Source of the DNA: an uncultured Bacteroidota bacterium
Lineage (GTDB): Bacteria; Bacteroidota; Bacteroidia; Chitinophagales; Chitinophagaceae
DNA length: 64,000 nt
NCBI GenBank assembly: GCA_903824665.1
Contig: CAIJXT010000024.1
Coordinates: 62,001 to 126,000, forward strand
Direction: 5' to 3'
Under the pieces are notes generated by a model. It was not told the origin of the DNA and searched no databases. It saw nothing but the letters and a program-made list of their open reading frames with translations. The position numbers were made by a program, and so were the translations under genes. Below are positions 5,858-11,884 of the stretch, piece after piece (the stretch's first letter is position 1; each line of letters opens with the position of its first letter).

Positions 5858-7057
5858 TTAACGGGCAGTGTTCCGGTACATGGCACCAAACACAAAAAGT
5901 AAAGCAAGAAGAAGGGAAGAAATCTCAAAAACAGGCATGATCTGCACCCGCAACAAATGCAGCAATAAGGCACCAATCAATAGCGTGATAGCGACAGCAG
6001 CATACAGTCTTTTTGCACGTTTGCCGAGAAATGGAACCAGCAAATTTGTAGGTAATGCCCACAGCACGTTAAAGTTGTCTTTCCAGGCAGGTTCACCATT
6101 CATAAACCACCACCTTAGGATCAAACATCCGGCAATACCGGTAAGCAGCAAAACCACAGTACTCATTATTCTGCCGGGTATTGGTGATTTTGGGATAAGC
6201 AACGCGCAAATGGTAAAAACAGATAACAAAAGTAAAATATAGAAGGGCTGATTGGCTCTTTTTTCCCAATCTATAGTCTCATCCTGTATTACAGTCCTGC
6301 TACTGCAAATTTTTCTGCCGTCAATAGTTGCATCACTCATACCATTGCTCAATAATGATGGCAGAAACATAGCCTCATGATTCGACATCACCCGGTCTGT
6401 GCGGCTGGCATAGAGGATATTGACCGCAAAACCAAACCAGTATTTATGCTGGGCAGGGCATAATGTAGTAACCGTAACATCGCGAAATGTAATGCGTGAA
6501 TCCTTGGGTACAGCTGCTCCGTATTGAAACCGGTTTCCAAAAATGATAGTAAACAGATCGCGAATCCTGGTGCTGCAATTGTCGTAGAATGTATCAAAAT
6601 CATAGTATCGGTTTTCGCGGCGGAGATTTTTCTTCAGAAAAGCAACGACAAGTTCCTTTTGTTGTTCATCGAGTTCGAATACCTGCTCTGTTATACTCCT
6701 TTTCTTGATCCGGTACTCTATCATCAGCTCCTCAAAAGTAATCGTGTCGAGCAGGTCAACCACACGGCCACTAAATGCCTGAGACCAGATACTGTTACCC
6801 TCACTGGACTCAAAAAAGCCGTAATTATAAATCTTATCTCTTTCAGCGTCTGTCTTTGAGCTATCGATAACCCTGATGCAAGCATGTCCGAAAGTTTCCC
6901 AAACCTCCTCCCCGGGACCGCAGGTGAGCAAACTGATGCGGTAATGGGAAGCACCGCCTGCCGGGGACTCTACTGCAGTTGCAGTGTCTGCCTGGGCCTG
7001 AGCGAAAAAATGCAAACCCACCGTAAGTATCAAAGCGAGTATAGCCCTGTACATCAT
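5858..7057 (-). CDS. DUF4105 (Lnb N-terminal periplasmic domain) membrane protein
   Basis: This 399-residue protein starts with a signal peptide (MMYRAILALILTVGLHFFAQ...). Residues about 38-190 match the DUF4105/Lnb-type periplasmic domain, with the characteristic GPGEEVWETFGHACIRV and YDNCSTRIRDL segments; the conserved His and Cys resemble a papain/NlpC-like fold, but catalysis is unproven. The C-terminal third has about five hydrophobic segments (from FYILLLLSVFTICALL onward), so the periplasmic domain is anchored in the inner membrane. A TATTTTTG element lies only 4 nt before the tandem ATG ATG start, so the leader is very short. Family function is unknown; a lipid or peptidoglycan-related hydrolase is only a guess. 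Confidence 0.85.
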   Translation of the reverse strand: MMYRAILALILTVGLHFFAQAQADTATAVESPAGGASHYRISLLTCGPGEEVWETFGHACIRVIDSSKTDAERDKIYNYGFFESSEGNSIWSQAFSGRVVDLLDTITFEELMIEYRIKKRSITEQVFELDEQQKELVVAFLKKNLRRENRYYDFDTFYDNCSTRIRDLFTIIFGNRFQYGAAVPKDSRITFRDVTVTTLCPAQHKYWFGFAVNILYASRTDRVMSNHEAMFLPSLLSNGMSDATIDGRKICSSRTVIQDETIDWEKRANQPFYILLLLSVFTICALLIPKSPIPGRIMSTVVLLLTGIAGCLILRWWFMNGEPAWKDNFNVLWALPTNLLVPFLGKRAKRLYAAVAITLLIGALLLHLLRVQIMPVFEISSLLLALLFVFGAMYRNTAR

Positions 7058-7350: not shown

Positions 7351-10300
7351 ATGAAGCAATATAAAGAGAACAAAGGATTGAATATGCCTTCCATAGAGCA
7401 GGAAATGCTTGCAAAATGGAAAGAGGAACACAGTTTTGAAGAAAGCGTAACACAACGCGAAGGCGCTGATACATTCGTTTTTTATGAAGGCCCTCCAAGT
7501 GCCAACGGTATGCCGGGCATCCACCATGTCATTTCGCGTACGCTGAAAGATCTTGTATGCCGTTACAAAACAATGCAAGGCTATCAGGTGCAGCGCAAAG
7601 CTGGATGGGATACGCATGGTCTGCCGGTAGAACTGGGCGTAGAAAAGGAATTGGGTATAACGAAGGAAGACATTGGCATCAAAATAAGCGTTGAAGACTA
7701 TAACCGCAAATGCCGTGAGGTAGTAATGCGGTATAAAGATAAATGGGAAGAAATAACCGAAAAAATGGGTTATTGGGTGGATATGGGCAACCCCTATGTC
7801 ACCTTTGAGAATGAATACATTGAAACATTGTGGTGGGCGTTGAAAGAACTGTACAACAAAAACCTGTTGTATAAAAGCGTCAGCATACAGCCTTATTCGC
7901 CCGCAGCGGGCACCGGGCTCAGCAGCCATGAGCTGAACCAGCCCGGCACCTACAAAGATGTGAAAGACACCACTGTAGTGGCCATGTTCAAGGCTGTACA
8001 GAATGAGCAATCGCAGTTTCTGTTTGACGCGGCAATGGGTGAGGATTTCTATTTTATGGCATGGACCACTACCCCATGGACCTTGCCGAGCAATTGCGGA
8101 TTGACAGTTGGCCCCAATATCGATTATGTGCTGGTGGCGACCTTCAACCCCTACACCCATAAGCCGTGCAATGTGATACTGGCCAAGGCGCTGTTGGGTA
8201 AATATTTTAAAGAAGAACATCGTGATGCCGACTTCAGTGCTTACACCGCTGAATCCAAAGCGACACCCTGGAAAATTCTGTTGGAATGCAAGGGCAGCGC
8301 ACTGGAAGGTATCCGGTATGAGCAGCTGTTGCCATTTGAAGGAAATACGCGTGAGGTTGCTGGTGGCGACCCATGGCGGGTGATCACAGGCGACTTTGTA
8401 ACCACCGAAGATGGCACCGGCATAGTGCACACAGCGCCAGCCTTTGGTGCTGATGACTACCGCGTAGGGAAAAAGAACAATATAGGTATACTGACCATGG
8501 TAGACCGCGAGGGTAAGTTTAACGACTATACCGGCGCATACAGTGGCAGGTATGTGAAGAACTACAAAAACGACCCAGACTATAAAGATGTAGATGTTGA
8601 CATTGCTGTGCAACTGAAAATCAGTGGTCATGCTTTTAAAGTAGAAAAGTATGAACATACCTATCCGCACTGCTGGCGCACAGACAAACCTGTAATATAC
8701 TATCCGCTGGATGCATGGTTTATACGTACTACGGCAGTAAAAGACCGGATGATAGCACTGAACAAAACCATCAACTGGAAGCCCAAGGCTACCGGTGAAG
8801 GTCGTTTTGGTAACTGGCTGGAGAACATGGTGGACTGGAACCTGAGCCGCAGTCGCTTCTGGGGTACACCACTACCCATCTGGGTGAGTGACGATGGCAC
8901 CGAAACAAAATGTATCGGCAGCATTGCCGAGCTGATAGTAGAAGCTCATAAGGCTAATAAAGTTTTAGGTATCAATCAGCTGCTGGCTGAGGAAGTCAAT
9001 TTGAAAGATACCCTTGATCTGCACAAACCCTATGTTGATCAGATAATTTTGGTTTCGGCTACCGGCAAGGCTATGCGCCGCGAACCGGACCTTGTGGATG
9101 TGTGGTTTGACAGTGGAGCTATGCCCTATGCGCAGTTGCACTACCCATTTGGCGCTGATCCGGTGAGTGTGCTGAAAAAGAATTTCCCTGCCGACTTCAT
9201 CGCCGAAGGCGTAGACCAGACACGCGGATGGTTCTATACCCTGCATGCGCTGAGCGTGATGCTTTTTGACAGTGTGGCGTACAAAACGGTAGTGAGTAAC
9301 GGATTGGTGCTGGACAAGAATGGCAATAAAATGAGCAAGCGTCTGGGCAATGTGGTTGATCCGTTTATCACCATCGAACAGAACAGCGCTGATGCTACAA
9401 GGTGGTACCTCATCACCAATGCATCGCCATGGGACAGCCTGAAATTTGATAATGAAGGAATCAAAGAAATACAACGCAAATATTTCGGTACGCTCTACAA
9501 TACCTATCAGTTCTTTGCGCTGTATGCCAATGTGGATGGGTTCACGTTTGCCGAACAATACATACCTGTAAACGAACGCCCTGAAATAGACAGATGGATA
9601 CTATCGTCGCTGAATAGCCTTGTAAGGAACGTGACCGCCTATATGGACGATTACGAACCCACGCAGGCTGGCAGAGCTATGGAGTACTTTCTGGATGAGC
9701 AACTGAGCAACTGGTACGTACGTTTGTGTCGCCGCCGGTTTTGGAAAGGCGAATATGAGCATGACAAAATCTGCGCGTACCAGACGCTATATGAGTGCCT
9801 GGAGACGCTGTCGCTGATGATGGCCCCTATAGCACCATTTTTTGCAGACTGGCTGTACCGCAACCTGAACGAGGTAACAGGACGGCACAGGCAGGGTGTG
9901 AGTGTTCATTTGGGCACATTCCCGGTGACCGACGAAAATCTGATTGATAAAGACCTGGAAGAGCGTATGCAGATGGCACAGGACATCTCTTCGCTGGTTC
10001 TGTCAATAAGAAAAAAAGTAAATATAAAAGTACGCCAACCGCTCAGCCGTATTCTGGTACCGGTACGTGATGCTGCTATGCAAGAGCAGATCGTGCTGAT
10101 TGAAGACCTGCTGAAAGGCGAAGTAAACATCAAGACTGTTGAATACCTGACGGATACAGCCGGTTTTATTAACAAAAAAATAAAGGCGAATTTCAAGGCG
10201 TTGGGCACTCGCATGGGCGCCCGCATGAAAGCCGTGGCAGCCGCTATAGGTAACATGAGCCAGCAGGATATCGCAATGCTGGAACAGCAAAAATCTTTCA

Positions 10301-10695
10301 ATCTGCCGATAGATGGTGGAACTGTTGAGATTCTGCCAACAGATGTAGATATTATCGCAGACGACATCCCCGGATGGTCTGTAGCTAATAAAGACACGCT
10401 TACTGTAGCACTTGATATCACTATAACACCACAGTTGCTGGAAGAGGGCATAGCCCGCGAGCTGGTAAACCGGGTGCAGAAGGTAAGGAAAGACAGTGGA
10501 TTGGAGGTTACAGACCGGATCATATTAAAGATTGAACACAACGAAGAACTAAAAAGTGCAATAATTAATTTTAGTAACTATATTTGCGCGGAAATTTTAG
10601 CAGATAATATAGAGATAGCTTCGGTATTGGACGATGGGACAGAAATAGAGATGAATGAAATAAAGCTCAAAATACTCATATCAAAAACCACTTAA
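7351..10695 (+). CDS. ileS: Isoleucyl-tRNA synthetase, type 2 (IleRS2)
   Basis: This 1114-residue class I synthetase charges tRNA-Ile in the cytoplasm. The N-terminus (MKQYKENKGLNMPSIEQEMLAKW) fits the family start. The first signature region reads ANGMPGIHHVISR, so the canonical HIGH is replaced by G56-I57-H58-H59. The second signature is KMSKR at residues 660-664. The editing domain lies between (about residues 190-430), with WTTTPWTLPSN at its entry. Length and sequence character place it in the long eukaryote-like type 2 group, which is known to be insensitive to mupirocin compared with type 1. The gene is followed 4 nt later by the DksA-like gene, suggesting co-transcription. A short hairpin (GCCTG/CAGGC) precedes the start by about 30 nt; I see no T-box. 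Confidence 0.97.
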   Translation: MKQYKENKGLNMPSIEQEMLAKWKEEHSFEESVTQREGADTFVFYEGPPSANGMPGIHHVISRTLKDLVCRYKTMQGYQVQRKAGWDTHGLPVELGVEKELGITKEDIGIKISVEDYNRKCREVVMRYKDKWEEITEKMGYWVDMGNPYVTFENEYIETLWWALKELYNKNLLYKSVSIQPYSPAAGTGLSSHELNQPGTYKDVKDTTVVAMFKAVQNEQSQFLFDAAMGEDFYFMAWTTTPWTLPSNCGLTVGPNIDYVLVATFNPYTHKPCNVILAKALLGKYFKEEHRDADFSAYTAESKATPWKILLECKGSALEGIRYEQLLPFEGNTREVAGGDPWRVITGDFVTTEDGTGIVHTAPAFGADDYRVGKKNNIGILTMVDREGKFNDYTGAYSGRYVKNYKNDPDYKDVDVDIAVQLKISGHAFKVEKYEHTYPHCWRTDKPVIYYPLDAWFIRTTAVKDRMIALNKTINWKPKATGEGRFGNWLENMVDWNLSRSRFWGTPLPIWVSDDGTETKCIGSIAELIVEAHKANKVLGINQLLAEEVNLKDTLDLHKPYVDQIILVSATGKAMRREPDLVDVWFDSGAMPYAQLHYPFGADPVSVLKKNFPADFIAEGVDQTRGWFYTLHALSVMLFDSVAYKTVVSNGLVLDKNGNKMSKRLGNVVDPFITIEQNSADATRWYLITNASPWDSLKFDNEGIKEIQRKYFGTLYNTYQFFALYANVDGFTFAEQYIPVNERPEIDRWILSSLNSLVRNVTAYMDDYEPTQAGRAMEYFLDEQLSNWYVRLCRRRFWKGEYEHDKICAYQTLYECLETLSLMMAPIAPFFADWLYRNLNEVTGRHRQGVSVHLGTFPVTDENLIDKDLEERMQMAQDISSLVLSIRKKVNIKVRQPLSRILVPVRDAAMQEQIVLIEDLLKGEVNIKTVEYLTDTAGFINKKIKANFKALGTRMGARMKAVAAAIGNMSQQDIAMLEQQKSFNLPIDGGTVEILPTDVDIIADDIPGWSVANKDTLTVALDITITPQLLEEGIARELVNRVQKVRKDSGLEVTDRIILKIEHNEELKSAIINFSNYICAEILADNIEIASVLDDGTEIEMNEIKLKILISKTT

Positions 10696-10699
10696 AGTT

Positions 10700-11884
10700 A
10701 TGGCTATCAACAAAAAGCAAACAGCTAAGCCTGCTAAAAACGTGAAAGTTCAAGTTTCCGCTAAAAAAGCGGCGCCTGCTGTTCAGAAAAAGGTAGCCAC
10801 AAAACAATCAAAAGAACCCGCAAAAATTACGATAGCCAAAAAACCGGTAAAACCAGTTGCTAAGAAAGTAGTAGCAAAGCCAGTAGCGAAAAAGGCAGCA
10901 CCGGCGAAAAAAGCAGCACCGGCGGCAAAACCGATTGCGACTGGAAAAAACCAGCCATTAAACAAAAAACCAGCATCAGCTAATAACCAACAGACTGTGA
11001 ATAAAAAGAATAGCAAGCCTGAAACAAAGGCAACAAAAGCAACGCCAGCCAAAAAAGCAGAAGTAGCCAAAAAAGCTGCTCCGGTAGCGAAGAAAGCCGC
11101 GCCGGCAAAGAAAGCCGCACCGGCAAAACCCGCGCCTGTACCTGTAGCAAAAGCTCCGGTAAAACCAGCAGCAAAGAAGGCAGCTCCTGCAAAACCAGCA
11201 CCCGCACCAGCACCCGTAGCTAAAAAACCAGAAGTTGCCAGAAAACCTGCAACAACTGCAAAAAGACCAGCGTCAAAAACACCAATAAAACAGATGCCTG
11301 TGAAACCGGCTGTGCCTGTTGTGAAACCTATGGCAACACCGGCAGCAAGGCCAACAGAAAAGAAGCCTACGGTTGTTATTGCGCATCGTAAGTTGGAAAA
11401 CAAATCGAAATCATCGAAAGAATCGGCCAACGTCGTTATCCCATATCAGGCAGAAACATATCGTTCTATACTGGACGAACCTACGCCCGTGCAACAGTCG
11501 ACCATTTACAGGTATAGCGATGAAGAGCTGAACGAATTCAGGCAGATCATCATGACCAGACTCGAAGCTGCCCGTAAAGAACTGCACTACCTGCAGGGAC
11601 TGATAACCCGTAAAGATGAGGCAGGAACAGAAGATACCGAAAACCGCTTTATGAATATGGAAGACGGCAGTGGTGCTATGGAACGCGAGCAACTGGCACA
11701 GCTGGCAAGCCGGCAGATTCAGTTCATGAACCATCTGGAAAAAGCGCTTGTACGTATAGAAAACAAGACATACGGTGTGTGCCGCGTAACAGGGAAGTTG
11801 ATAGACAAGGCGCGTTTGCGTGCCGTGCCTCACGCTACGCTGAGTATCGAAGCAAAAAACCTGATGTCTACCAAACAGAACTAA
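10700..11884 (+). CDS. TraR/DksA-family protein with long Lys/Ala/Pro tail
   Basis: This 394-residue protein has two parts. Residues 1 to about 235 are a low-complexity tail rich in Lys, Ala and Pro, with repeated AKKAAPAK motifs like histone H1. Residues about 265-394 form a DksA/TraR module: a coiled-coil helical pair (EELNEFRQIIMTRLEAARKE) followed by YGVCRVTGKLI...RLRAVPHATL. In a canonical DksA the finger carries four cysteines; here only one remains and the others are Thr, Ser or Ala, so zinc binding is unlikely. Zinc-less versions are common in Bacteroidota. It starts 4 nt after ileS and ends before a strong terminator. Likely role: RNA polymerase secondary-channel regulator that may also bind nucleic acid through the basic tail (inference). 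Confidence 0.85.
   Translation: MAINKKQTAKPAKNVKVQVSAKKAAPAVQKKVATKQSKEPAKITIAKKPVKPVAKKVVAKPVAKKAAPAKKAAPAAKPIATGKNQPLNKKPASANNQQTVNKKNSKPETKATKATPAKKAEVAKKAAPVAKKAAPAKKAAPAKPAPVPVAKAPVKPAAKKAAPAKPAPAPAPVAKKPEVARKPATTAKRPASKTPIKQMPVKPAVPVVKPMATPAARPTEKKPTVVIAHRKLENKSKSSKESANVVIPYQAETYRSILDEPTPVQQSTIYRYSDEELNEFRQIIMTRLEAARKELHYLQGLITRKDEAGTEDTENRFMNMEDGSGAMEREQLAQLASRQIQFMNHLEKALVRIENKTYGVCRVTGKLIDKARLRAVPHATLSIEAKNLMSTKQN

Follow-up and report, generated by a model that had tools for sequence, protein, structure and literature searches.

The ileS locus

The window, a stretch of 64,000 nucleotides from a Bacteroidota genome, carries an intact reading frame of 1114 aa for an isoleucyl-tRNA synthetase (IleRS), with the following features in and around it.

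5858-7057, minus strand: protein combining an Lnb-type periplasmic domain at the N terminus with a transmembrane domain (PF13387, PF25221), divergent from ileS
7351-10695, plus strand: ileS, type 2 IleRS, 1114 aa (TIGR00392, PF00133, PF08264, PF19302; closest PDB chains, P. megaterium IleRS2)
7516-7527, plus strand: class I signature in swapped form, G56-I57-H58-H59, where HxGH is usual (direct reading; in-register alignment; 83/83 loci)
8401-8463, plus strand: core of the CP1 post-transfer editing site, TTEDGTGIVHTAPAFGADDYR (residues 351-371), including the Asp conserved in the GxDD motif (alignment)
9328-9342, plus strand: second class I signature KMSKR, residues 660-664 (alignment; KMSKR is the norm of the clade)
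10700-11884, plus strand: zinc finger protein of the DksA/TraR type, directly after ileS, whose N-terminal part is long and rich in Lys, Ala, and Pro

Both NCBIfam and Pfam name the product of 7351-10695 isoleucyl-tRNA synthetase, and its TIGR00392 score of 1010 bits exceeds the curated cutoff of 621 bits. The pairing of ileS with dksA also occurs in other Bacteroidota (synteny at three loci, L108 to L110). In the protein encoded at 10700-11884, the N-terminal part comprises ∼230 residues of Lys/Ala/Pro-rich repeats (AAPAKKA, PVAKK); in Bacteroides and Riemerella, by contrast, the DksA-type neighbor of ileS is short (about 126 aa).

Plasmid-labeled ileS records of Bacteroides and Parabacteroides were considered as mobile resistance copies and rejected, as their neighbors (dksA, lspA, DUF4296, and BamA-like genes) are ordinary chromosomal genes. 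Such neighbors make the plasmid-labeled records look like pieces of chromosome, and the PLSDB records NZ_OY725767.1 and NZ_OY725923.1 (L108 and L110) are probably circularized chromosome pieces or mislabeled entries. The Riemerella record also contains lepA and lspA.

The GIHH signature of a type 2 IleRS

The initial annotation had read GIHH in place of HIGH, in good register, with no frame error and with an intact KMSKR. This reading stands. Bases 7516-7527 (GGCATCCACCAT) form the codons GGC ATC CAC CAT in the frame of the open reading frame at 7351-10695 (plus strand) and code for G-I-H-H at residues 56 to 59. The motif and its context, PPSANGMPGIHHVISRTLKDLVCRY, align without gaps with both an HxGH IleRS2 and the type 1 enzyme (IleRS1) of E. 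coli, and KMSKR is found at residues 660 to 664. The first position is Gly and the third is His, so that the signature is of the G/AxHH kind, which is defined by Gly or Ala in the first of these positions and His in the third. The KMSKS-type loop, with its final Ser changed to Arg, and the editing core GTGIVHTAPAFGADD are intact by alignment. From the alignment and previous work (PMC4861432), we infer that the Asp of the GxDD motif is equivalent to the editing Asp D334 of SgIleRS.

The enzyme belongs to type 2: both sequence comparison and a tree place it nearer to IleRS2, and farther from IleRS1. Its best PDB matches were four P. megaterium IleRS2 structures (824 to 835 bits), with 8c8w, which reads GVHH at the same alignment columns as GIHH, at the top, whereas type 1 structures scored about 325 bits or less. 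In a small tree, in which E. coli was the single IleRS1 row and long branches raised a warning, the window IleRS fell inside Bacteroidota on the IleRS2 side, apart from E. coli IleRS1 (SH-aLRT, 99).

A genome-wide search (4.73 Mb, 99.4% complete) for a second ileS found none over the profile cutoff: the window gene was the sole match above it, and the remaining matches were weak and corresponded to related synthetases. The earlier description of the gene as the only visible IleRS extends to the genome. In the same genome, ValRS keeps HMGH and a CysRS-like open reading frame keeps HLGH, so the swap is not general to the class I synthetases of this organism.

Conservation of the swapped signature across Bacteroidota

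A contig scan yielded 80 relatives with 58 to 82% identity, the nearest of which (a Sphingobacteriales MAG, Flavipsychrobacter, and Taibaiella) are Chitinophagaceae-like Bacteroidota. GIHH was present in each of the 83 loci that span the motif (the gene of the window itself accounts for two of them), and this makes it neither an error nor a chance occurrence. At the scale of the phylum, a pattern of codons encoding NGxP[G/A]xHH was present in 296 of the 297 genomes sampled and in 293/293 of those with at least 90% completeness and at most 5% contamination; the reversed pattern, used as a control, gave 5 matches in the same sample. The corresponding HxGH pattern was detected in 12 genomes of the phylum, which made reversions seem possible. 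Of the 10 matches inspected, however, 8 had the GlnRS-type context PEPNGxPHxGHA, and the other 2 had arisen by chance in unrelated reading frames. In the phylum sample, no type 2 IleRS with a canonical motif was found by this pattern (10 of 12 matches read; other contexts would escape it). The swap is real yet ordinary, being the usual form in nearly all of the phylum, and the rarity implied by the initial annotation gives way to a G/AxHH motif that is fixed across Bacteroidota. In each of two genomes from the window's own family (G115 and G254), NGxPGIHH matched twice, which suggests a pair of GxHH IleRS genes per genome.

KMSKR was found in about 80 of the loci compared, with one KMSKS and one KMAKS as exceptions. 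Together with GxHH, we observed KMAKS in Taibaiella soli, KMSKH in Nonomuraea, and KMSKS in Acetoanaerobium; the last case, which combines GIHH with KMSKS, indicates that the swap does not need KMSKR. A codon-pattern search for KMSKR was indicative only, since KMSKS with AGY codons also matches and makes it too loose. It is an unlikely proposal that GIHH and KMSKR co-evolved in Bacteroidia, with the Arg compensating for the moved His and a catalytic geometry unlike that of GxHH IleRS2 enzymes characterized to date.

Two other accounts of the locus can be weighed against these data. That an ordinary HIGH motif was misread through a sequencing or frame error would need two codons to be wrong together and is contradicted by the uniformity of the 83 loci and of the phylum sample, which leaves it practically no credence. 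Scarcely more probable is a role of ileS as an additional resistance gene outside housekeeping, comparable to MupA in staphylococci. The window IleRS does match the MupA and MupB models with about 777 bits, because MupA and MupB are also type 2 enzymes; this score, however, is far under their curated cutoff of 1900 bits and places the gene outside both families. Moreover, the 99.4% complete genome has no other IleRS over the profile cutoff, its ileS adjoins dksA as in other Bacteroidota, and MupA itself reads HTGH. We hold with high confidence that ileS encodes the housekeeping IleRS of a Chitinophagaceae-like bacterium, an IleRS2 that has the first and third signature residues exchanged (GIHH) and is predicted to be nearly insensitive to mupirocin.

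Predicted insensitivity to mupirocin

The initial annotation had described some bacterial type 2 IleRS enzymes of the GxHH form as active and extremely resistant to mupirocin, and published work agrees. According to the accessible text of Brkic et al. 2023 (PMC10485003), G/AxHH occurs naturally in 86 IleRS2 cases and preserves catalysis in IleRS2 while raising the Ki of mupirocin ∼1000-fold at most, into the millimolar range. The same text reports that D. radiodurans IleRS2 (ALHH) has normal catalysis and a Ki of 6.6 mM, which drops 823-fold to 8.1 µM when ALHH is changed to HVGH. GVHH put into two canonical IleRS2 enzymes increased the Ki about 200-fold or more, and in PmIleRS2 the Ki went from 1.08 to 460 µM; the swap was not tolerated by IleRS1 (PMC10485003). 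In the crystal structures described there, the third His occupies the site where the first His would have its catalytic nitrogen, and modeling shows that it clashes with mupirocin. The IleRS2 of S. griseus, which has the same kind of motif, has a Ki of 10 mM and rescues E. coli lacking a functional IleRS (PMC4861432).

We propose that the window enzyme would function in the same way. In IleRS2, a shifted tip of the signature helix allows the His at position 3 to supply the catalytic nitrogen that otherwise comes from the first His and to stay clear of the ATP adenine. This residue does collide with bound mupirocin, and the drug would have hardly any effect on the window enzyme. The sequence features required by this mechanism (type 2 scaffold, GxHH, KMSK loop, and editing core) are all present. 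Based on these features, intrinsic insensitivity of the target, the interpretation offered in the initial annotation, is strongly predicted, with an expected Ki in the high micromolar to millimolar range; the exact value could differ, given KMSKR here versus KMSKS in the canonical P. megaterium enzyme. In Gram-negative cells, drug entry also limits mupirocin, so that whole-cell resistance alone would be no proof of an effect at the target. In the papers searched, no assay of the window enzyme or of another Bacteroidota IleRS was found, nor any usable mupirocin test on Bacteroidota.

Origin of the swap and comparison with known systems

Within Bacteroidota, the swap was most likely inherited vertically. 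It may be an old alternative signature that was fixed in the ancestor of the phylum and never selected as resistance, the insensitivity being a by-product. This idea concerns origin, not mechanism, and is compatible with a housekeeping GIHH IleRS2. Phylum-wide fixation and the absence of observed reversions point to vertical inheritance. Against the by-product account stand Brkic et al., who infer that the swap arose independently two or more times and suggest that antibiotics in the environment selected for it (accessible text of PMC10485003). We judge an origin as a by-product to be a serious candidate, falling slightly short of an even chance. The accessible text of that paper does not mention Bacteroidota by name, and the phylum-wide state is very probably already contained in its tree of 379 IleRS from representative proteomes.

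By its sequence, the housekeeping GIHH enzyme of the window is a further member of the published group of hyper-resistant IleRS2, and previous studies already account for it. The finding supports the idea that the mupirocin target is intrinsically insensitive throughout an entire phylum of common bacteria. In resistome annotation, ileS of Bacteroidota is a housekeeping gene and not an acquired resistance gene. The result is also relevant to thinking on IleRS inhibitors and leaves the known mechanism unchanged.

With the G/AxHH IleRS2 group (ALHH in D. radiodurans; S. griseus), the window enzyme shares type 2 membership, the exchange of the first and third residues, an intact KMSK part, and a housekeeping role; it differs in coming from Bacteroidota and in having KMSKR, and it is known here from sequence. 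The IleRS2 enzymes of Acetoanaerobium (GIHH) and Nonomuraea (GVHH) have the same swap but belong to other phyla and carry KMSKS and KMSKH, respectively. The P. megaterium IleRS2 (8c8u, 8c8v, and 8c8w) is a full-length homologue, and its engineered mutant 8c8w carries GVHH, a motif of the same kind, in the same columns, whereas its wild type reads HVGH and P. megaterium also has an IleRS1. MupA and MupB of staphylococci are likewise type 2 IleRS that confer resistance through an insensitive target, but they are plasmid-borne, and MupA keeps HxGH (HTGH) and is an acquired second copy.
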